Of a DNA stretch of 20,283 nt, positions 5,652 through 19,463 are shown in pieces; positions within the stretch are counted from its first letter, which is position 1, and each line of letters starts with the position of its first letter. Position numbers and translations under genes: made by a program. The stretch is from a virus. Location of the stretch: positions 1-20,283 of IMG/VR virus record IMGVR_UViG_3300020195_000187, one strand, 5' to 3'. The notes beneath the pieces were generated by a model. That model did no database searches. It worked only from the letters and a program-made list of their open reading frames with translations, and had not been told where the DNA came from.

Positions 5652-6881
5652 ATGGCTCTTGACCTTACTAGCTTTGAATCCGCACTTAAAGAACACTATA
5701 CCAATGACGCGGTACTTGACCTCGTTTACGCCGACCGTCCTTTCCTTGCTCTTATTGACAAGATGGAAGATTTCGGCGGTAAGGTTCTGCCTATCCCAAT
5801 TATCTGGGGTAATCCTCAAGGCCGTTCTGCTACCTTCTCGAACGCCCAGACACGCGGTGCTGTTTCGTCCACGTCTATCTCTGACTTCGTTCTTACTCGC
5901 GTTCGTGACTATCAGATTGTCACCATTGACGAAGAAACTCTCCGCGCCTCCGAAGGTAACGCCAACTCCTTTATGGAGGCAGTCACAACTGAGATTGACG
6001 GTGGCACCAACAACCTGTCTAACTCACTTGCCTCGGCAATGTTCCGCAAGGCGTCTGGCTCCATCGGTCAGGTTTCCGTTGAGCCTACTGAGGCTGCTGG
6101 CTCGTACGTGGTGAAGCTCTCCAGAGCTTCCGATGTCTGCTCGTTTGCGGTGGGTCAGGTTCTCGTTATCTGGTCTGCCGAAACCGGCGGCTCGCAGCGT
6201 TCTTCGGACGGCTCTGACCTTAACTGGGTTGTGGAAGGCGTTGACCGTGACCTCGGCAATCTTGAACTGACGGGCACCTACAGTGCTTCCGGCACCATCG
6301 CTGCTAACGACTTCATTTTCGTTGAAGGCGACCGTGGAAACCGCATGAGCGGCCTCCTTGACTGGTTGCCTCCTACCACACCTAGCTCTACGCCCTTCTT
6401 CGGTGTTGACCGCACGGTTGATACGCGCTTGTCTGGCATCCGTTTCGATGGCTCTAACCAGCCTATCGAGGAGGCACTGACGGACGCTGCTTCCCGCCTT
6501 GCTCGCGAGGGAGCCAAGCCAACCCACGTCATCATGAGCTTCGAGAAGTACGCGGAACTGGAAAAGAGCCTTGGCTCTAAAGTCCAGTACGTTGACCTGA
6601 AGGTGTCTGCTGAAGTCGGTTTCCGTGGAATCGTGATCAACGGCCCTAAAGGCCCGATCAAGGTTCTCGCTGACCAGAACTGCCCCGGTGGCTACGCGTT
6701 CATGCTCCAGCTCAACACCTGGAAACTGTACTCGCTCGGCAAGGCTGTCTCCATCACGGACACTGATGGTAACCGTATGCTGCGGCAGGCTTCGGCTGAC
6801 GGCGTGGAAGTCCGCATGGCATTCTACGGCAACCTCGGCTGCCGCGCTCCTGGCTACAACGCAGTCATCACCCTCGGGTAA
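5652..6881 (+). CDS. Major capsid protein
   Basis: This 409-residue protein builds the icosahedral shell, and the HK97 fold is expected. It follows the scaffold gene by 19 bases and is itself followed by a strong terminator, as in many phages. Recognisable features are the N-terminal helix and E-loop style start (around residues 5-60, with YADRPFLALID), a middle insertion-like beta region (about 140-215), and a C-terminal P- and A-domain region. The last includes the strand-rich segments GIVINGPKGPIKVLAD and RMLRQASADGVEVRMAFYGN. No protease gene or pro-domain is evident, which fits a separate scaffold protein. The start is ATG 5652 with TGGAG at 5639-5643. The direct neighbours support the call; the family-level resemblance is from memory. 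Confidence 0.9.
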   Translation: MALDLTSFESALKEHYTNDAVLDLVYADRPFLALIDKMEDFGGKVLPIPIIWGNPQGRSATFSNAQTRGAVSSTSISDFVLTRVRDYQIVTIDEETLRASEGNANSFMEAVTTEIDGGTNNLSNSLASAMFRKASGSIGQVSVEPTEAAGSYVVKLSRASDVCSFAVGQVLVIWSAETGGSQRSSDGSDLNWVVEGVDRDLGNLELTGTYSASGTIAANDFIFVEGDRGNRMSGLLDWLPPTTPSSTPFFGVDRTVDTRLSGIRFDGSNQPIEEALTDAASRLAREGAKPTHVIMSFEKYAELEKSLGSKVQYVDLKVSAEVGFRGIVINGPKGPIKVLADQNCPGGYAFMLQLNTWKLYSLGKAVSITDTDGNRMLRQASADGVEVRMAFYGNLGCRAPGYNAVITLG

Positions 6882-6890
6882 TGGCTCATA

Positions 6891-6944
6891 AGCCCGCGCT
6901 TGAACCATCCAGATATTCTGGGGTGTTGAAGGCGCGGGCTTTTT
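6891..6944 (+). terminator. Rho-independent terminator after the capsid gene
   Basis: AGCCCGCGC (6891-6899) pairs perfectly with GCGCGGGCT (6932-6940) and is followed by a run of five T (6940-6944). The 32-base loop contains a second perfect hairpin, CCAGA/TCTGG (6909-6913 with 6917-6921), so the element is two stacked hairpins. It would reduce read-through into the following genes after the highly expressed capsid gene. Confidence 0.85.
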
Positions 6945-6965
6945 CTAAATACAAAGGAATTTATT

Positions 6966-10234: not shown

Positions 10235-10467
10235 TGAAATATTGCTTTAAGTTTCGTCGCAAGTGGTTTTGGCGTTCGCTTACAGTCGTAGGACACTCTT
10301 ACGTAGTAGACCAGGACAAGATGGTTCTGTTCTTTGAGGGAGGCTCCGTCAGGGAAATAGCCCATTGGAAAGAGTGTGAGCTTCGACTTGGCGTGGACTG
10401 GGTGCTAGCCCAGAAACGCGCCCTTGAAGAACAAGCCGGGCAGGCAGTGCCAGTTAGGGGTGTCTGA
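10234..10467 (+). CDS. Small basic-aromatic protein of unknown function, 77 residues
   Basis: The start at ATG 10234 overlaps the stop of the fibre gene. A GTG at 10231 in frame would add one residue. The first 15 residues are basic and aromatic (KYCFKFRRKWFWR), followed by short strands (about 16-44, with HSYVVDQDKMVLFFEGG) and a C-terminal helix rich in Glu, Ala and Gln. There is no membrane segment long enough to call. Similar small proteins with a K-Y-C-F-K-F start occur between tail genes in other phages as I recall, without a known role. Its stop overlaps the start of the next gene by one base, so expression is probably coupled. Confidence 0.7.
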   Translation: MKYCFKFRRKWFWRSLTVVGHSYVVDQDKMVLFFEGGSVREIAHWKECELRLGVDWVLAQKRALEEQAGQAVPVRGV

Positions 10468-13400
10468 TGGCTCTAGGGAAGACGAACGTACCGATCTCTT
10501 TGGGGCTCGGCCTTGATACAAAAACAGATTCAAAGCAGTTGCAAGGCTCTTTAATATCCCTGCAAAATGGATATGTTAGCAAAGTAGGAGAAATCAGGAA
10601 ACGTTATGGCTATGATTCTCTTGGGAAAGAGGTCATTGGTGGGGTTGATTTGAGCGACGGCGTGAAGCTGGCAACGTTCAACAACGAGCTTGCCTTGCTG
10701 ACGGCTAATACCCTCTATTCATATGCTTTAGAGGCTGGTAAGTGGTCTAACAAAGGGCCAGTGGCTACGGCGTCAGTGAGCACGCGGCCCGTTATCGCCA
10801 ACTCCTACCAGCAAGAGTGTCAGGATATGGCTCTCATTGGTGGGACAGCCGTATATGCGTGGGAAGACAGCCGAGGCGGTGTGCGTGCAACAGTGATTGA
10901 CCAAGCTTCAGGCGCGTCGCTCATTGACGACGTGTCGTTGGATACAGGAGGCGCACGTCCCCGTTGTATAGCTATAGGCTCATTCGTATTCGTGTTCTGG
11001 CATAACCTCACTGACCAGACGCTGTACGCCGCACGAGCGGACATCAACAACCCCAACCAGTTCACAAGCCCAGTGGTGGTGGCAGCCGACCTTAACAACG
11101 GCGGCCTATTTGATATGTGCGTGTTTGGTTCGACTATGCTCGTAGCCTACCGCACCGTGGGTAATGACTTGAAGCTGGCTTACTTCCTTCAGTCGAACCA
11201 TACTGGGTCTGTTGTGGACGGCGTGCCTGCGCCACTGCTCATTAGTGCTGAAGACCCTGACAGCTGCGTGAGCATTACGGCAGGCGTCACGATTAGCGGT
11301 AGCTCCACGTTCCATGTCGCGTGGTACAACACTGTGGCTGGCGTCAAGACCATGGGGTTCTATCAAGACTTCACGACGTACAAGGCTGCCGTGGTTGTGG
11401 ATTCAAGTACCACAGCAAGTGTACGTAATATCACGGCGGTGTCATTCACTAACGAGTTTACGACGCTGAACACGCTAGAGATTTACTACGAACGCGAGGC
11501 TGCGAAGCTCGTTGACCACTACGTCAGCAGAGCCCTTGTGGCTGTTGATGGTAACACAGTTAACACTGTGGACGTCTATCAACGTTCGGCTGGTCTTGCC
11601 TCCAAGGCTTACCGCGTGCTTGGCGCTACACGGCTCAATGTTTCATATGAGTCCGAGGCAGGCTTTCAAAACACGCTGTTCAATATCTCTGACGATGCTA
11701 GCCGCACGCTTGGTGGTTGGGGTTTCGATTGGGGTTTTAGCTGGGGTGGAGTCCAAGTCAAAGCAATCATCGACACCAAGATGCTTGCTTCAGTGAGCGG
11801 TGGACACACACCAAAGGCAAGTCAGTTACCTGGAGTGTGGTTCGACACCCCTACATCCATTGTAACCGCAGCTAGCCGCAAGACGCGCATCGTTGCGGAT
11901 AACGTTGACTCGTTCACACTGACGGGTATCAACGTCCTCGAAGTGCAATACAAGGCCACCAACGTAGGGCTATCAGCCCAGTTGGGGCAGAACCTCCATA
12001 TCCCTGGAGGGTTCCTCAAGGGCTACGACGGCAAGACGGTCGTTGAGCACGGCTTCCACTTGTTCCCGGAAACACCCGCTGCAGCTGCAGGGGCTACGGG
12101 CAGCATCGCGTCGGGGACGTATCAGTGGGTCGTAGTGTGGGAATGGATTGATGCCAAGGGGCAGATACACCGCAGCGCACCGAGCATACCTGCTAGCTTT
12201 ACGGTACTTGGTCCTGATGCGGTGAACCTCACCATCCCCACATTACGTTACACAGCTAAGAAGGCTCCAGCGCGCACGGAAGTGATTGCCAGCGTGTATC
12301 GCACCACCGCAGGCGGCACTCTGTTCTACAAGGTGAGCAGCGACACGGCTCCGCTCTACAACGACGTGTCAGTTGATACGATTGGGTTTGCTGACACGCT
12401 CTCGGACGCGGCTATACAGGCAAGGTCGCTGCTGTACACGACAGGCGGTACGTTGGAAAACATTGCCCCACCGGCCTGTAATGTGGTCAAGGCGTTTAAG
12501 AACAGACTGTTCCTCGCTGGCCTTGAGAACCCTAACGACGTGCTGTTCTCGAAGGAGTTTGTAAGTGACGAGGGTGTAGCGTTCTCTGACCTGTTGAGGG
12601 TTAGCGTGAATGCATCAGGTGGCAGTGTGACGGCGCTCGCCTCGCTTGATGAGAAGCTCGTGCTGTTCAAGCCAACAGGTATCTTTGTACTCAGCGGGCA
12701 AGGGCCAACGGACACGGGCGCTCAGAACGACTTTCAACAGCCACAGCAGGTTAGCTCCGACGTGGGTTGTAGTCAGCCTGAGAGTATCGTTGAAACCCCA
12801 ATGGGGGTGACGTTCAAGTCGTCCAAGGGCATTTACCTGTTAGACCGAGCCCTGAACGTGTCCTACATCGGGGACAAGGTAGAGGCGTTCAACGGTCTGG
12901 ATGTAACAGGTGCAGTGCTCGTGCCTCAGTTCAACCATGTGCGCTTCACGACGGCTGAAGGCACCACGCTTGTGTACGACTACCTGTTCAAGCTTTGGAC
13001 AACGTACACGAACCAAGCCGCCGTCTCCGCTGTCAGTTGGAATGATGCCTATTGCTTTCTACGCTCAGACGGAGCTGTGTGGAAGGAATCGACGTCGGGC
13101 TACGCTGATAACGGTACGCCAGTAAAAACACGCATAGAGACGTCCTGGATACAGACAGCAGGCTTGCAGGGCTACCAGCGCGTGTATCAGGCCATGGTGC
13201 TAGGTGAATACGTTGGCGCGCACCACCTCAAGGTGAGCGTTGCATATGACTTTGAGGCGTTCTATCGCGAGTCGTTCACCATCAACCCTGACGGGGTAAC
13301 GGTATCGTCAACTTACGGTACTGAGACGCCTTACGGGTCTGGTACGTTCGGCGGGGTAGAGAACGGTGTGTATCAGCTAGATTGCAAGGTAGCGCGTCAG

Positions 13401-13547
13401 AAGTGCAGTGCCATCAAGTTCTTAATTGAAGACTTCTTCCCCTCCGCACAGGCGACAGGCGGATTTAACATCAGCGCGTTGACTCTGGTCACAGGTGTCA
13501 AGCAAGGCATGAATAAGCTGAGCGGCAGCAGAACCATGCGGTCTTAA
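10467..13547 (+). CDS. Probable tail nozzle or stabilisation protein, 1026 residues
   Basis: This is the largest gene in the window. The product is beta-rich through its length, with many short Val/Thr/Ser strands, which suggests a multi-bladed propeller-like core. The start (VPISLGLGLDTKTDSKQL, residues about 8-25, then a KRYGYD motif near 44-49) and the end (CSAIKFLIEDFFPSAQATGG, then a Val-Lys-Gln-Gly-containing tail) match what I remember of podovirus tail nozzle or tail tube B proteins and P22 gp10-like stabilisers. These form the channel below the adaptor. ATG 10467 overlaps the previous TGA by one base, with AGGGGTG as ribosome binding site. The position after adaptor and fibre genes and before ejection proteins supports the call. 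The exact name is inferred. Confidence 0.7.
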   Translation: MALGKTNVPISLGLGLDTKTDSKQLQGSLISLQNGYVSKVGEIRKRYGYDSLGKEVIGGVDLSDGVKLATFNNELALLTANTLYSYALEAGKWSNKGPVATASVSTRPVIANSYQQECQDMALIGGTAVYAWEDSRGGVRATVIDQASGASLIDDVSLDTGGARPRCIAIGSFVFVFWHNLTDQTLYAARADINNPNQFTSPVVVAADLNNGGLFDMCVFGSTMLVAYRTVGNDLKLAYFLQSNHTGSVVDGVPAPLLISAEDPDSCVSITAGVTISGSSTFHVAWYNTVAGVKTMGFYQDFTTYKAAVVVDSSTTASVRNITAVSFTNEFTTLNTLEIYYEREAAKLVDHYVSRALVAVDGNTVNTVDVYQRSAGLASKAYRVLGATRLNVSYESEAGFQNTLFNISDDASRTLGGWGFDWGFSWGGVQVKAIIDTKMLASVSGGHTPKASQLPGVWFDTPTSIVTAASRKTRIVADNVDSFTLTGINVLEVQYKATNVGLSAQLGQNLHIPGGFLKGYDGKTVVEHGFHLFPETPAAAAGATGSIASGTYQWVVVWEWIDAKGQIHRSAPSIPASFTVLGPDAVNLTIPTLRYTAKKAPARTEVIASVYRTTAGGTLFYKVSSDTAPLYNDVSVDTIGFADTLSDAAIQARSLLYTTGGTLENIAPPACNVVKAFKNRLFLAGLENPNDVLFSKEFVSDEGVAFSDLLRVSVNASGGSVTALASLDEKLVLFKPTGIFVLSGQGPTDTGAQNDFQQPQQVSSDVGCSQPESIVETPMGVTFKSSKGIYLLDRALNVSYIGDKVEAFNGLDVTGAVLVPQFNHVRFTTAEGTTLVYDYLFKLWTTYTNQAAVSAVSWNDAYCFLRSDGAVWKESTSGYADNGTPVKTRIETSWIQTAGLQGYQRVYQAMVLGEYVGAHHLKVSVAYDFEAFYRESFTINPDGVTVSSTYGTETPYGSGTFGGVENGVYQLDCKVARQKCSAIKFLIEDFFPSAQATGGFNISALTLVTGVKQGMNKLSGSRTMRS

Positions 13548-13583: not shown

Positions 13584-15425
13584 ATGACACCTGAAGAAGA
13601 AGCGAAACAAAAAGCCATGCTTGCGGCTCTAGCCCCTAAGCCACTGGCTCCAGCTCCTGTAGCGGTACAAGCTGCCCCAGCCCCGAAACCTCCTCCCGGC
13701 TCAGCCAGCGCGGCACTTGAAGATATCAAGAATGGTAAGGTTTCGGGCTCAAATGTCTCCACAGCGGTAACTAAGAACGTAACCCGTGGTGCTGCTGCGG
13801 CGGGTTCGTGGGGTCTGTCAGAAATCCCAATAGGTGGGCAAGGTATAGGCGAGCGGGTTGGTAACGCTGCAGCCAAGGTTGACGCCAAAGTTAACAGCTT
13901 CTTCAAGGCACTTGACCCTACCAACGTCAAGATGACTCGTGCTTCTACGGGTGGCATCGACACTGCTCAGGGCGGTATAACCGCAGTAGGCACTAAGGCT
14001 GGTGGGTTGGCTCAAGCACTCGCTGCAAACCCCGTTACCTCTCAGCAAGTCCAGGTTGCCATGCCGGGGAATGCGTCCACCGTGATGCGCCAGGATGGAA
14101 TTGTCGCTGACCGTATTGCGGGTCAGCTTCCTACCGTTCAGGCACAACAAGCACGGATGCAGTCCGTTGACCCTGCTATGATTGCTGAGCTTGAGCGCAT
14201 GAACGCAGCCCAGATTAATCGCGGTGAAGACCAGCAAGTCAGATCCAGTCAAATGGGCTTGATTGAGGCTCTACAAGGTCAGGCTAACGGCACGGCACCG
14301 TCTCTCGCTGAACAGCAGCTCAAGCGTTCAAATGAGCAGACTATAGCCTCACAGATGGCTCAAGCAGCTTCTGCCCGTGGCGGTAATCCCGCTATGGCCC
14401 AACGTATGGCGGCTCAGAACATCGCTGGCCTTCAGGCTGATGCAGCGGGTAGGGCGGCAGAGCTTCGTATCCAGGAGCAGACAGCAGCACGCCAGCAGCT
14501 CACACAGGCTCTTGATTCCACTCGTGGTCAGGATGTTACAGTCGCTTCGCAGCAAGCCCAGCTCGCACAGCAGGCAGCACAGGTTAATAAGACAGCAAGT
14601 GACCAAGCAGCTCTCGCACAAGCCCAACTCATTCAACAGGCGGCACTGGCTAACCAAGGTGAGTTTGGGCAAACGCAGCGGTTCAACGTGGAGCAGGACA
14701 CAGGGGCACAGAAGGCTAACCAGTCTACGTTGCTGCAAGGGCTCACGGCTGACCAGGGTGCTTCACTCGACGCACAGAAGGCCACGGCAGCTAATACTAT
14801 CAACGTTGATCAGTTCAATGCCAAGGCTACTGATGAAATGGCGAGATTCTCTACTGATGCCAGACTACGAGCTGACGTAGCCAACCAAGCCGCAGCCCTT
14901 CAGGCTCAGGGCATGACGGTGGATAGCATTGCGAAGTTCATGGGGCTTGAGCAGGACTCCCTCAAGGCTGTGCTAGCCAGCGAAACAGCTAAATTCACCT
15001 CTGAACAAGCTACGCTGAACGCTGAGTCGGAGAAGAAATCGAATATGCTTGGGAACGTCGTTGGCACCGTGGCGCAGGTAATCGCCATGTGTTTCCCCGC
15101 TGGTACACCAATCAGCATGATGGACGGCAGCACAACGCCCATTGAAGATATTGAAATAGGCGACATGGTGAGCGGTGGTGCCGTGCTCGGTACCCGTAAA
15201 CAGCTTGTGAACGAGCGCCTTTACGACGTTGGCGGAGTTCTGATGACAGGCTCACATGCGGTCTTCGAAGGCGGTAAGGCCGTGTATGCGAGGGATGTGA
15301 GCGTACCTGCTCATACGCACGTTGGACTTGTCTATAACATTGTGACTTCAACGCACCGCATGTGGGTCAAAGGGATTGAGCTTGGCGACGACACAGTCGA
15401 CGCTGGAGGTGCTGTATGCAACTGA
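13584..15425 (+). CDS. Internal virion (DNA-ejection) type protein with C-terminal Hint autoprocessing domain
   Basis: This 613-residue protein has three parts. Residues about 1-45 are Ala/Pro-rich and disordered. Residues about 160-500 are Gln/Ala-rich, long-helical or coiled-coil (with GNPAMAQRMAAQNIAGLQAD), in the style of proteins packed in the capsid and ejected with DNA. From Cys503 to the end is a Hint domain with CFPAGTPI, TGSH and THR motifs. The Hint fold should cleave the bond before Cys503 and release a 502-residue N-terminal product. The start is ATG 13584 with GGAGGT at 13571-13576. The last ten bases overlap the next gene, whose ribosome binding site lies inside the Hint coding region. 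The ejection role is inferred from composition and gene order. An alternative is a tail or needle component. Confidence 0.8.
   Translation: MTPEEEAKQKAMLAALAPKPLAPAPVAVQAAPAPKPPPGSASAALEDIKNGKVSGSNVSTAVTKNVTRGAAAAGSWGLSEIPIGGQGIGERVGNAAAKVDAKVNSFFKALDPTNVKMTRASTGGIDTAQGGITAVGTKAGGLAQALAANPVTSQQVQVAMPGNASTVMRQDGIVADRIAGQLPTVQAQQARMQSVDPAMIAELERMNAAQINRGEDQQVRSSQMGLIEALQGQANGTAPSLAEQQLKRSNEQTIASQMAQAASARGGNPAMAQRMAAQNIAGLQADAAGRAAELRIQEQTAARQQLTQALDSTRGQDVTVASQQAQLAQQAAQVNKTASDQAALAQAQLIQQAALANQGEFGQTQRFNVEQDTGAQKANQSTLLQGLTADQGASLDAQKATAANTINVDQFNAKATDEMARFSTDARLRADVANQAAALQAQGMTVDSIAKFMGLEQDSLKAVLASETAKFTSEQATLNAESEKKSNMLGNVVGTVAQVIAMCFPAGTPISMMDGSTTPIEDIEIGDMVSGGAVLGTRKQLVNERLYDVGGVLMTGSHAVFEGGKAVYARDVSVPAHTHVGLVYNIVTSTHRMWVKGIELGDDTVDAGGAVCN
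15090..15422 (+). other. Hint (Hedgehog/intein) domain coding region
   Basis: This region encodes residues 503-613 of the preceding entry. Block A is Cys503 followed by FPAGTPISMMDGSTTPIEDI and then GDMV. Block B is the TxxH signature as T555-G-S-H558, followed by AVFEGG. A block F-like segment, YNIVTSTHRMWVKGIE, contains H591. The C-terminus ends Val-Cys-Asn613, immediately before the stop. A splicing intein would end His-Asn and continue with Cys, Ser or Thr, so this is a cleaving Hint domain without a C-extein. At 111 residues it is short but complete in its N-terminal catalytic motifs. The Hint call comes from motif recognition; activity is inferred. Confidence 0.85.
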
Positions 15426-16873
15426 TGAGCCAAGAATTAGACGAGAACGGCAACCCCGCTGCAAAGCCTTTGTCACCCGAACTGGCGGGGATGAAACCCC
15501 CGGCTGTAGTCTACCCTGACGCACCACCTCCAGCCGCAGCCCCTGAACCAGAACCAGCTGCGCCTGTGGTAGCTGCGGCACCTGCCCCTGTGATGCCCGC
15601 GTACGATATCGCTAAGACCACAACGACCTCAACGTCAGCGCCCGTAGCCAACCCGGGCGAGAAGGCTACACAGGCCGCGCTTGATGGTGACACCGCACGC
15701 CTGCAAGACCTCGCGCAACAGGAAGGCAAGCTCCTAGAGGCCAAGGCTCAGATTGACGAACAGCGCGCCGCTACAGCTGATAAGATTGCGACCGACTCCG
15801 AACAGCGCAAGGTTCAGTATGCCTCCGCTATTGAGAAAGCCACTCAAGAAGCTGACGCTGAAATTGACGCCCGCTACACAGAGATGAAGAGTTTTAAGTT
15901 CAGAGATTACTGGGAAGACCAGAGCACAGGGGACAAGGTACTCGCTGCCATTGCTATCGGCCTCGGTGGACTTGGCGCAGGCATGACGGGTAAAGGTGGC
16001 AATGGTGCGCTCGACGTCATCAACAACGCAATTACCCGTGATAGCGAACGCCAGAAGTCACAGTTTGAACAGCTCAAGGCTACGTTGGGTGAGGCTCAGG
16101 CGCTCAAGGCCAGCAAGCTGAACGGTATGAGCAACGTTGAAGCAGCATTCGCTCTGTCAGATGCTGGCAAGTACGACGCCGCTCTTAAGAAGGCTGAGTC
16201 TATGCTTGCAAAGCAGGGTGTACCTGCTGCTGAGATTCAGACAAACCAAGTGGTAGCGGGCCTCACGCAGAAGCGAAACACCGAACTGCTGAAGGCGCAG
16301 CAGTCGTTGCGCGCCACAAAGACAACGCAAGTACAAGAGCAAATCGTCAAGGCTCAGCCTGTACCCGGCGCTACGCCGAAGGATGCACAGGAAGAGATCC
16401 AGGCAAACGTTGACTTCAAGGCATTCAAAGAACGTCGTGCAGCTCGTGACAACTTCAAAGGGTTCGTTAAGACAGGGGCCACGGGCGCAGCACTGGCTGA
16501 CTTCCTTGCCACAGGTATGAAACAAGGCTCGTTCGGGCCTGAGATGATTAACATCCTGTCAAAGCGCAGCCTCATTGACCAAGCGGGCGAAGTGGTTCGT
16601 AACAAGGTGGAAGGTGACTACTCGCCTGCCCTGATGCGGACGATTCAGGACGGGCTAAACGCTCAGTATGCAGTGTCTGAACGTAACGCGAAGCCAGTGA
16701 TTACACGGGCTCGCCAACTGGGAAAAGAACGCTTCGGGGACGCCAACTACTTCCTTGGCGAAGCGGAAGCACCACAGAAGCTTTCGGTAGACGACCAAGC
16801 GGCGTTGAACTGGGCTACCTCGAACCCCAACGACCCCCGCGCCGCTGAAATCAAGAGGAGCCTCGGTCAATGA
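15416..16873 (+). CDS. Putative internal virion (DNA-ejection) protein, 485 residues
   Basis: The N-terminal about 75 residues are strongly Pro/Ala-rich and disordered. Residues about 80-165 are charged and helical (coiled coil). Around 175-200 there is a Gly/Ala-rich hydrophobic stretch (VLAAIAIGLGGLGAGM) able to contact membrane, then more helix to the end with many Ala, Lys and Gln. This architecture is like internal core or ejection proteins of podoviruses, which pass through the tail and help DNA cross the envelope. ATG 15416 is favoured over the in-frame ATG 15425, because GGAGGT (15405-15410) is five bases upstream of the first. It overlaps the Hint-domain gene by ten bases and the next gene by four. 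There is no enzymatic motif that I recognise. Confidence 0.7.
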   Translation: MQLMSQELDENGNPAAKPLSPELAGMKPPAVVYPDAPPPAAAPEPEPAAPVVAAAPAPVMPAYDIAKTTTTSTSAPVANPGEKATQAALDGDTARLQDLAQQEGKLLEAKAQIDEQRAATADKIATDSEQRKVQYASAIEKATQEADAEIDARYTEMKSFKFRDYWEDQSTGDKVLAAIAIGLGGLGAGMTGKGGNGALDVINNAITRDSERQKSQFEQLKATLGEAQALKASKLNGMSNVEAAFALSDAGKYDAALKKAESMLAKQGVPAAEIQTNQVVAGLTQKRNTELLKAQQSLRATKTTQVQEQIVKAQPVPGATPKDAQEEIQANVDFKAFKERRAARDNFKGFVKTGATGAALADFLATGMKQGSFGPEMINILSKRSLIDQAGEVVRNKVEGDYSPALMRTIQDGLNAQYAVSERNAKPVITRARQLGKERFGDANYFLGEAEAPQKLSVDDQAALNWATSNPNDPRAAEIKRSLGQ

Positions 16874-18657
16874 GCACGTTCAACCCTGACGATTACCTGA
16901 AGAAAAAGAAGACAGTAACTCCTGTACCTGCCTCAACACCAGCGCCTACGACGCCGGGTGCGTTCAACCCTGACACATACCTCGCTGCTAAGACCGCTGT
17001 AGCTGAAGGCCCGATCACTAAGACGGACTCTGCTCTACGTGGCGCTGCTCAAGGTGCAACATTGGGCTTTGCTGACGAGGCTGTGGGCGCGGCTCAAGGG
17101 CTATTTGACACAGCAACAAAGGGTGGCTCACTCGTCGAAAACTATACCAGGGCGCGCGATGAGAGCCGCGATAACTTCAAGGCGGCTGAACAGGCTAACC
17201 CATGGTCCTACATTGGCGGCAACGTGGCAGGCGGTTTCGCCTCCAGCGCGGTTATGCCGGGGTCGGGTGTATTGGGGCTTGGTAGGGCTGCGGCAGGCAT
17301 CATCAAGGGTACTGGCACTATCGCTAAGATAGGCCGTGGCGTAACTCAGGCTGGCGTTGCGGGCGCTGTTGTAGGGGCTGCTCAGGGTTTGGGCGACTCC
17401 ACTGAGAATACGGCTGGTGGGATGATAAGCGATGCGGGCAAGGGCGGCCGTGCGGGGGCTGCGTTCGGTGGTGCCTTCGGTGCTGCTGGCAAGCTGCTGC
17501 CTGGCGTGAAGGATTCCGTATCGAACGAGCTGTACCGCAAGGTGCTTTCCATCACGCTTGACGACGACAAGGCTGAGTCAGCCTACAAGCTCCTGAAGCA
17601 CCCCGAAGTGCGTAATCAAGTCGTGGCGCTTGCGAACAAGGACACCATCGACAAGGTGAAGTCGCAAGTCATGACTGTGATTGGTAATGATGTGCAGGAA
17701 TTTAACAAGATGGCTGGGCAGATTGGTCAGTCTATGCTGCAACGTGTTGACGATAAAATGGGCGGGCAGCTTGATAAGTTCCGCGAAACCATCGCCAAAA
17801 CCTACGAGCCTGCCATCTCTAAAATGAACCCCAAGGTAGCGCGTGCCGTGCCCGCCGTGCTCGAAGAAGTGCAGGACATTCTGTCGGGCCGTGCTCGTAT
17901 GGCTGCGGGTGAGATTGCTGACGCCACAGGCGAGCGTCTTCTCAATGCGCCCAATGCCCAGTCTATGCGTGATGTGCGTGATGCCCTCAAGCAAGCCTTG
18001 TACGTAGGCGGCAACCCCAAGCAGGGTATCAAGGACGGTATCAGCAAGACTGAAGCGCGCATAATGGAGTCGATGTACGCTCAGGTACAAACGATGTTCA
18101 AGGCCATTCCTGAAGCACGAGCGGCTGACACTCTTTACTCGAAGGCTGCGAACTACTCCAAGGCTGCACAGAAGGCGCTGTTTCGTCCCACGGGTAATGG
18201 CGGGAAAGAGATATCAAACGCTGCTGTAGAATCCTTCGTACTCGGTAAAGGCTCGGCGGGGCGCGTGGAAGACCTTGACCGCGTACTGACACTGCGTGCT
18301 GAGTTTGGCGATGCCTTGCAAGAGATTGCAGGCCGTGAGCTTGTCGATAGCCCCAACCTCGGCAACGCACGCAAGGTAATGGAGTTCAACCGCCTCGGTG
18401 TGGGCGATTCTACAGGCCGTTCCCTGGCCCCGCTTGTAGGCATGATCGCCTCCGCTGCGAGTGGTGGCTCTGACCTTGGATTAATGGCTGGCCTCACTGC
18501 CGCCGCCTATAACCCCCGCATGTACCTCAAAGCACTCGCCAAGGCTGACCAGCTCACAGGCGAAGACAGGCGTGTGATGCAGGCGATTATCCGGGCTGTA
18601 GGACGTGAGAGAGACAAGCAGGCCGTTAAGAAGTCAACAGATAAGGACAAGCAATGA
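16870..18657 (+). CDS. Putative internal virion (DNA-ejection) protein, 595 residues
   Basis: The N-terminus carries two copies of an F-N-P-D-x-Y-L motif (residues 4-10 and 32-38) separated by a Lys- then Pro/Thr-rich linker. Then comes an Ala/Gly-rich region (about 55-215) containing ALRGAAQGATLGFADEAVGA and a long small-residue hydrophobic zone (about 113-180) that could insert in membranes. The rest, to residue 595, is mostly helical and charged, ending with a Lys/Asp-rich tail. Phage proteins of this design are usually ejection proteins; the length is close to P22 gp16 (609). ATG 16870 overlaps the previous stop (ATGA), with AAGAGGAG upstream. No lytic transglycosylase or peptidase motif is evident. 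The functional call rests on composition and gene order. Confidence 0.7.
   Translation: MSTFNPDDYLKKKKTVTPVPASTPAPTTPGAFNPDTYLAAKTAVAEGPITKTDSALRGAAQGATLGFADEAVGAAQGLFDTATKGGSLVENYTRARDESRDNFKAAEQANPWSYIGGNVAGGFASSAVMPGSGVLGLGRAAAGIIKGTGTIAKIGRGVTQAGVAGAVVGAAQGLGDSTENTAGGMISDAGKGGRAGAAFGGAFGAAGKLLPGVKDSVSNELYRKVLSITLDDDKAESAYKLLKHPEVRNQVVALANKDTIDKVKSQVMTVIGNDVQEFNKMAGQIGQSMLQRVDDKMGGQLDKFRETIAKTYEPAISKMNPKVARAVPAVLEEVQDILSGRARMAAGEIADATGERLLNAPNAQSMRDVRDALKQALYVGGNPKQGIKDGISKTEARIMESMYAQVQTMFKAIPEARAADTLYSKAANYSKAAQKALFRPTGNGGKEISNAAVESFVLGKGSAGRVEDLDRVLTLRAEFGDALQEIAGRELVDSPNLGNARKVMEFNRLGVGDSTGRSLAPLVGMIASAASGGSDLGLMAGLTAAAYNPRMYLKALAKADQLTGEDRRVMQAIIRAVGRERDKQAVKKSTDKDKQ
16877..16974 (+). 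repeat. Two-copy 14-base direct repeat coding for an FNPDxYL motif
   Basis: The word CGTTCAACCCTGAC occurs at 16877-16890 and again at 16961-16974, exactly 84 bases (28 codons) apart and in the same reading frame. It encodes the F-N-P-D part of a repeated F-N-P-D-x-Y-L peptide motif. Codons after the identical core differ (GAT versus ACA, TAC in both), so the peptide rather than the DNA seems to be kept. Confidence 0.7.
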
Positions 18658-19463
18658 GACAAGCCGCACGGGAAGTAATGCTTGATGCTGACCCCGCCTC
18701 GCTGGCGAGTATGGAAGACGCTTCGGCATTGCTTGCCGTTATTGGCTTGCCCGCGCTGATGAAGAAGGGCGCACTGAGGGTATCCGAGGCCACTAAGGCA
18801 AGGGCCGTCAAATTCCCCTTTGAAGTAAGCAAGCGAATGCTGCGTTTCCTTGAGACACAAGACTTCGAGAAACTTAAGCTTGAGCTACCGAAAACAGACC
18901 TCAGTGCCCTTCGTGATGAGTTTTCTCGAGAGATTGATGCTTCGTGGTTGGCTGAGAAGCTGACTGACCTTGACGACGAGGATAAAATCTCCTTCGCACA
19001 GATGGTAGGTAAGGCTTATGCGTACCTGCTGGCGAAAATCCCACCACTTCCAACGTCTTTTAGGCCCGTGAAGGCGTCTGACTTCGTATCAGCGTCGTTT
19101 ATGAGGCGCTACCGCACTGTTTCTGACCCAATGACGGTCATATCTGACATGGAAATGGGCTGTCTTTCGATTGAACAGGTCAAAACGCTGGCGGAAGTGT
19201 ACCCCAACCTTCACGAAATGATGAAAACGGCACTCTTGTCAGCAGCCACCGATGTGATGCGGGATCCTGACTACATTATCCCCTACAAAAAGCTGAAAAT
19301 GGTAGCCATCCTAACGCTTCAGCCAATGCTGGGCTCCTCGTTACAGGAGGTGCTGCAAACGAACTTCCAACCCTCGGAAGAACAGCGGGCTAGTAGCCCT
19401 ACGCCTACGGCAAAACCCTCGGAATCCCTCACACAAGCACAAAAGGTCGAATTCGGTCGCTAA
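18654..19463 (+). CDS. Protein of unknown function between ejection and fibre genes, 269 residues
   Basis: I do not recognise this family. ATG 18654 overlaps the previous stop (ATGA) with AAGGA at 18643-18647, so it is translated with the ejection-protein genes. The product looks mainly alpha-helical. It has a hydrophobic stretch near residues 24-40 (ALLAVIGLPALMKKG), a charged middle (about 55-115), a strand- and helix-rich region around 130-215 with SFMRRYRTVSDPMTVISDMEMG, and a Ser/Thr/Pro-rich disordered end. The position suggests a virion component or an assembly chaperone for neighbouring tail or ejection proteins. There is no signal peptide, and no lysis-enzyme motif was found. Confidence 0.75.
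   Translation: MRQAAREVMLDADPASLASMEDASALLAVIGLPALMKKGALRVSEATKARAVKFPFEVSKRMLRFLETQDFEKLKLELPKTDLSALRDEFSREIDASWLAEKLTDLDDEDKISFAQMVGKAYAYLLAKIPPLPTSFRPVKASDFVSASFMRRYRTVSDPMTVISDMEMGCLSIEQVKTLAEVYPNLHEMMKTALLSAATDVMRDPDYIIPYKKLKMVAILTLQPMLGSSLQEVLQTNFQPSEEQRASSPTPTAKPSESLTQAQKVEFGR

Follow-up and report, generated by a model that had tools for sequence, protein, structure and literature searches.

A Hint domain at the C-terminus of a phage virion protein: a divergent member of a virus-specific subfamily and a candidate self-cleaving cap

The window analysed here is a virus record of 20,283 bases that carries genes for terminase, portal, capsid and tail. Its virion cluster encodes a 613-residue protein that ends in a Hint domain (Table 1). 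We read this domain, with a probability of about 0.58, as a C-terminal autoprocessing module that would free the 502-residue virion protein preceding it by self-cleavage resembling that of B-type BIL domains. The fold, the conserved residues, the strictly terminal position, the exchange of the module and its absence in a syntenic relative were seen directly; we infer the cleavage, its timing, its nucleophile and its benefit to the phage.

Hint domains that cleave themselves are familiar from inteins, which are parasites, from Hedgehog signalling and from variable proteins of bacteria. Both the fold and its chemistry are already known, and some proteins of uncultured phages bear automatic ‘Hint’ labels, such as A0A6J5KSY2 and A0A8S5UY86 in UniProt/BFVD, which share the Hint fold but differ in that their labels are automatic. 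The phage Hint papers that we found concern inteins in terminase, helicase or ribonucleotide reductase, and the literature searched here holds no description of the present subfamily, of its terminal position on virion proteins, of its cassette behaviour or of its linkage to GNAT-fold genes. If our reading is true, a virus-specific Hint domain that always comes last, is found on many virion proteins of unrelated kinds, spreads as a cassette and is frequently accompanied by a tightly linked GNAT would be a general device for protein maturation in phage particles. Small cleaving domains without the C-terminal reaction of inteins are also possible laboratory tools.

Identification of the Hint domain

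A first-pass annotation, made from the sequence, had placed a Hint domain at the C-terminus of the 613-residue protein and had suggested a profile search and a structure prediction as checks. Both were run, and both bear it out. The best single Pfam match is Vint (PF14623; E 6.5e-6, 26.5 bits against a cut-off of 27), with Hom_end_hint (E 1.8e-4, 22 bits against 32.1) and the Hedgehog (Hog) Hint model PF01079 (17.2 bits against 29.7) also below their cut-offs, and the PHROGs profiles gave no match for the domain. A subfamily HMM built from 63 non-redundant relatives, the window excluded, recovers residues 503-602 at 90.9 bits (E 3.5e-25 per 100,000 sequences), a score with mild circularity because these relatives were partly recruited with the window as bait; the best of 2,000 shuffles of the domain reached 6.7 bits against the same HMM. 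A further HMM, of 51 HN-type viral Hints, aligns the window at residues 503-532 only.

An AlphaFold2 model of the domain, built from a 12-sequence alignment, has a mean pLDDT of 87.5 and a pTM of 0.80, and its top Foldseek matches are all Hint domains. VIA-align superposed it with Z of 12-13.5 on structures of inteins, Vint, Hedgehog and BILs. Among these, Tetrahymena BIL2 (BUBL; 6y75) gave Z 13.5 with 1.9 A over 104 and the C. thermocellum BIL (2lwy) Z 12.7 with 1.6 A over 99, while Z was 12.9 for Hedgehog (1at0; 1.8 A over 101) and 12.7 for Vint (8r2c). The horseshoe Hint fold is thus predicted for the window protein, with its best structural matches, 6y75 and 2lwy, pointing to Tetrahymena BIL2 and the A-type BILs. 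Vint is the best Pfam match, shares the fold and likewise lacks the late motifs, but the window protein has no VWA or Vwaint domain and the Vint profile matches only one of 12 subfamily members. Hedgehog resembles the window in C-terminal autoprocessing without splicing, and Hedgehog and the subfamily alike keep gaining new N-terminal partners (for Hedgehog, PMC2362128); the window domain differs in its low Hog score and in having no sterol-recognition region. On sequence grounds, it is a divergent member of a virus-specific Hint subfamily that has no curated model.

Key residues and the end of the domain

All residues named in the first-pass annotation lie where it put them, namely Cys503 within CFPAGTPI (codon 503 at 15090), T555-G-S-H558, T590-H591-R and a V-C-N end. 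Their weight differs. His591 had been taken as a mark of the Hint fold, but its position is variable across the family, which rules it out as a conserved catalytic histidine. That the chain stops without a usable C-extein holds; the notable end is not Val-Cys-Asn, but Asp602, which family-wide stands at the site of the inteins’ terminal Asn. In structural alignments, Asp602 is the last residue aligned against NpuDnaE 137, SspDnaE 159, MxeGyrA 198 and gp41-1 125, which we take to be the final residues of those inteins. Sequence and structure alignments agree on this placement and rule out V-C-N as a degenerate His-Asn end; they indicate that the intein His-Asn became Gly601-Asp602 in the window and that V-C-N is an incidental tail. 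A-type BILs differ at this point, since they end in His-Asn. Asp itself is among the terminal residues listed for class 1 inteins (PMC7664689).

The residue after Asp602 is D603, not Cys, Ser or Thr, and only 11 residues are left. With no C-extein nucleophile (D602 then D603), a splicing intein is ruled out, and the earlier preference for cleavage or acyl transfer over splicing, as the likelier chemistry, was upheld. A truncated or frameshifted Hint gene is likewise ruled out, because the Hint fold is complete to its final strand and the gene that follows brings its own ribosome site and an overlapping start. These two facts also count against a decayed or split intein, that is, a gene that once ran into a C-extein and was then truncated. 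Block A does resemble that of PI-SceI, and splicing-type inteins are present in the same kind of viral contigs, but the domain is always terminal in unrelated proteins and evolves under purifying selection, with a median dN/dS of 0.10 across 160 pairs of equal length that are not independent. We regard decay as largely refuted and hardly credible.

Table 1. Coordinates of the features discussed. Positions without a prefix are those of the window; prefixed positions refer to the named locus.
Feature	Position	Strand	Basis
1026-aa tail-type protein, upstream of the Hint gene	10467..13547	+	37% identity to L006 2512-5451; phrog_511 and phrog_3287 matches; synteny marker with L006
Gene of the 613-residue virion-cluster protein with C-terminal Hint	13584..15425	+	ORF, GGAGGT upstream
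Core of the N-part, residues 226-309, common to the Hint-less syntenic L006 protein	14259..14510	+	51% identity over 84 residues, E 9e-19
Proposed scissile junction Met502-Cys503	15087..15092	+	Cys1 invariant in 64/64 non-redundant members; cleavage inferred
Hint domain proper, residues 503-602	15090..15389	+	HMM without window, 90.9 bits; structure model and VIA-align matches
Block B, T555-G-S-H558	15246..15257	+	His 64/64; first position S 47, A 9, T 7, E 1
His591, block-F position	15354..15356	+	Variable in family: R 31, N 17, H 11, K 3, Q 2 of 64
Asp602, site of the inteins’ terminal Asn	15387..15389	+	Asp in 63/64; model residue 100 meets last intein residue in 2keq, 1zd7, 1am2, 6qaz
11-residue C-terminal tail DTVDAGGAVCN, overlapping the next gene’s ATG at 15416	15390..15422	+	Sequence; without counterpart in relatives
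Two large downstream genes (485 and 595 aa), presumed ejection or virion proteins	15416..18657	+	Profile and homologue matches
Hint-ended tail assembly protein I genes	L140:11-1192; L155:4137-5441
GNAT-fold gene examples	L213:2207-2671; L179:5368-5787; L060:2897-3328; 55 further loci

Members and distribution of the subfamily

Members were collected in two scans of viral contigs, one with the pattern CFxxGTx[IVM]xMxDG, whose loci are a minimum, and one guided by a profile, from which the best 80 of 398 relatives among 599 candidate stretches were taken. Together the scans gave at least 113 loci whose domain is full-length and scores above 80 bits; with the window these make 114 sequences, or 64 non-redundant at 90%. 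The non-redundant members share without exception Cys1, the block-B His and a Gly-Gly pair at positions 29-30, and the Asp at the intein Asn site, present in all but one, forms a Gly/Thr/Ala-Asp end. The constancy of Cys1 extends to 78 of 78 members of the profile-guided set, where the patterns contained neither Cys1 nor the block-B His. Every member above 80 bits carries the domain at the chain end, with 0-33 residues past the matched profile, and in many of them the tail after the Asp is conserved.

These conservation patterns bear on whether the domain could be non-catalytic in phages, a folding, trimerisation or assembly module retained on the virion protein. Variation of the block-F His and block-B Thr speaks for such a role, as do the conserved post-Asp tails, which suggest an interaction surface. 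Yet Cys1, unneeded for the fold, is invariant at high divergence; the block-B His is just as constant, and the Asp nearly so. With Cys1 and His unchanging, a structural role is less likely, and we hold it to be quite improbable.

In the Hint tree the window forms a long branch, and its activity may therefore differ from that of the family. Four queries with limited peptide patterns found no full-length subfamily domain in 50,697 phage records. A one-per-species genome collection gave a single match with the family’s own C-terminal end, in L213, a contig that was binned into a Verrucomicrobia MAG and carries phage tail-type genes; the other C-terminal matches in that collection, L214 (61 bits) and L234 (41 bits), are more distant relatives. 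The subfamily thus appears almost only in viruses, as judged from scans with limited peptide patterns in which absence is not absolute.

Some subfamily members directly follow an HN-type Hint in tandem (L036, L038, L060), a further likeness to A-type BILs. The arrangement of HN-type Hint, short linker and terminal Asp-type Hint within one protein was noted in these loci and in L043, L049, L183, L204 and L205. In a roughly classified sample of 89 viral Hint starts, 32 had HN followed by a residue other than Cys, Ser or Thr, compared with 16 that had splicing-type ends, and 10 further ones end at most 12 residues past HN. BIL-like Hints seem to be abundant in environmental viruses.

Fusion partners and cassette exchange

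The fusion partners of the terminal Hint domain fall into many unrelated groups. For example, the partner in L140 (phrog_32 E 5e-50) and L155 (E 5e-38) is the lambda tail assembly protein I, and a large gene comes next, where lambda has J. The L140 match covers positions 3-201 of the 203 in the tail assembly protein I profile and ends before Hint starts. A DUF4815 baseplate protein is the partner in L030, Gly-rich tail proteins are further partners, and other partners lie between tail and presumed ejection genes (L046, L102, L129, L152, L174, L179). By such profile matches, the partners look complete before the Hint domain. Cultured DUF4815 homologues number 903 records; the five inspected extend to 1,579-2,879 residues, and no Hint-linked GNAT was found at these five loci.

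Evidence for exchange comes from DNA comparisons between loci. In L001, L002, L004 and L008, the Hint DNA is 97-100% identical and the N-parts are 39-51% identical in protein. DNA similarity begins three bases upstream of the Cys1 codon in the pairs L020/L157, L036/L153 and L144/L171. The Hint stretch is the sole similarity found between L098 and L116 and between L020 and L147, and between L144 and L171 it is the sole similarity found at this gene. Since DNA similarity is confined to Hint or starts just before Cys1, N-parts are exchanged at the Hint boundary. As these alignments indicate, the Hint domain is an exchangeable cassette capping unrelated phage virion proteins.

Several side observations concern the partners and their neighbours. 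A lambda tail assembly protein I with a ubiquitin-like domain and a terminal Hint recalls the ciliate polyubiquitin-BIL genes. L046 has, between its Hint gene and the genes presumed to serve ejection, a short ORF (6606-6965) that looks by eye like an M15-type peptidase. SET-domain genes stand beside some Hint-ended proteins, as at L038:1436-1909 (Pfam SET E 1.5e-9) and L009:7067-7501; their frequency, seven of 113 subfamily loci against four of 92 other Hint loci, leads us to claim no association.

Relatives of the window protein

The N-part of the window protein has a natural counterpart without the cap. In L006, a 980-aa tail protein 37% identical to the window’s 1026-aa protein precedes one of 248 aa, in which the core of the 613-aa protein recurs (51% over 84 residues), and no Hint was found anywhere in this 18-kb record. 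The Hint domain is therefore dispensable for this protein family, and a released 1-502 form would resemble a natural protein. L046 preserves the gene order of the window, with a tail protein, a Hint protein and a homologue of the 595-aa protein (E 2e-7); the 595-aa protein also matches phrog_5880 (E 4e-22), and the 485-aa protein has a weak match to L006. Separately, an 839-aa protein of L006 (7785-10304), in the place corresponding to window 16870-19463, matches the window’s separate 269-aa protein (E 7e-9), which suggests that relatives differ in whether the 595- and 269-aa genes are separate or joined.

The 613-aa protein had been called ejection-type in the first-pass annotation. Its position fits, as it follows the 1026-aa tail protein and precedes two large virion-type genes in the order seen in L006 and L046, and the assignment is plausible. 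None of the profiles puts a name to the protein, and its N-part gave no significant hhalign match (E 0.16) to the Ala/Gln-rich N-parts found in L102 and L129. A cleavage timed to ejection, also proposed there, gained no support, because Hint is a swappable cap across many kinds of virion protein and is not peculiar to ejection proteins. Used as bait, the 1026-aa protein found no loci in viral contigs, and neither the N-part nor the MCP found a match in cultured phages.

Proposed chemistry

We propose that Cys503, aided by T555 and H558, would carry out an N-to-S acyl shift at Met502-Cys503, that the resulting thioester would yield to water or a small thiol, and that residues 1-502 would thereby be freed from the Hint cap. 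Water or a small thiol is the expected destination because Asp602 replaces the intein Asn, the next residue is a non-nucleophile and there is no C-extein. The module, made up of the final 111 residues, would then act as a removable, exchangeable C-terminal cap, analogous to the N-terminal cleavage of B-type BILs. These domains share with the subfamily the Hint fold, blocks A and B, the lack of a C-terminal His-Asn motif and an occurrence in variable proteins, and their cleavage is expected at the N-terminus (PMC7765530). BIL domains without a +1 nucleophile mostly cleave (PMC7664689). The subfamily differs from B-type BILs in that it always sits at the C-terminus, on phage virion proteins, that our scans met it in viruses only and that it has a conserved Asp at the Asn site; the proposed likeness to B-type BILs is one of anatomy. 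Counting against self-cleavage is the block-B Thr (T555 in the window), which is usually Ser or Ala in the family. The conserved Asp, together with the conserved tails of other members, suggests a role beyond plain hydrolysis.

The main rival of self-cleavage is ligation, in which a specific acceptor with an amine or hydroxyl group, be it a glycan, a lipid, a further copy of the protein or a partner in the virion, would receive the thioester, an attachment like that of Hedgehog to cholesterol or the isopeptide formed by Tetrahymena BIL2. The nearest folds to the window domain include Hedgehog 1at0 and BIL2 6y75, BIL2 conjugates ubiquitin-like proteins (PMC8616854), and the near-invariant Asp could activate a second nucleophile. 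However, no sterol-recognition region follows the window domain, and the partner proteins are too varied for one acceptor to be easily pictured. Attachment to an envelope component, one of the options named in the first-pass annotation, gained no support. We consider ligation unlikely, and turn below to the neighbouring genes that bear on it from both sides.

Linked GNAT-fold genes

A small GNAT-fold gene lies downstream on the same strand at 58 of the 113 subfamily loci, the main clade being phrog_17252-like, and either overlaps the end of the Hint gene or starts about 1.2-2 kb downstream. GNATs of this clade were found at none of 92 other viral Hint loci and at none of the bacterial Hint loci L214-L286. 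In a reciprocal scan with the GNAT only, a Hint gene lay upstream within 3 kb in 79 of 80 cases, and the exception has 1,365 bases upstream; the seeds had been chosen for adjoining Hint genes, and several contigs recur between scans. GNAT genes exclusive to Hint loci as a general rule are ruled out, since distant GNATs (25-34% identity) occur in Hint-less virion clusters of cultured Bacteroidetes phages. By these comparisons, Hint linkage holds for the closer GNAT clade, not for all phage GNATs.

The partner genes could encode acyl-transfer enzymes, which would favour ligation, but motif A, [RQ]xxGx[GA], is missing in 57 of the 58 Hint-linked GNATs. A model of a linked GNAT (pLDDT 89.6) matches GNAT structures (5jph E 5.6e-7), and among its matches are chains of 4cry and 4crz, presumably those of PanZ from the PanD-PanZ study.

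PanZ is a GNAT-fold protein that promotes activation of the PanD zymogen in a CoA-dependent manner (PMC4410942). The present case is similar in tying a GNAT-fold gene to a protein of self-cleaving type; it differs in that the self-cleaving fold of PanD is not Hint and the window has no linked GNAT, and the likeness is known here from genes and models. By analogy, one might speculate that terminal Hint and GNAT form a two-component virion maturation system, in which the motif-A-less GNAT, instead of acetylating, would bind the Hint-tailed protein and trigger or redirect its N-to-S acyl shift as PanZ does for PanD. Hint traded as a cassette would then give any virion protein a controllable self-cleaving end, and the window, as a divergent member, would use another trigger or a GNAT located elsewhere. 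We consider this scheme a long shot.

The window itself has no GNAT of the Hint-linked clade. Its ORF 157-546, upstream of terminase, shows weak acetyltransferase similarity (phrog_1249 E 0.049) with an RRNGVA motif, and falls outside that clade.
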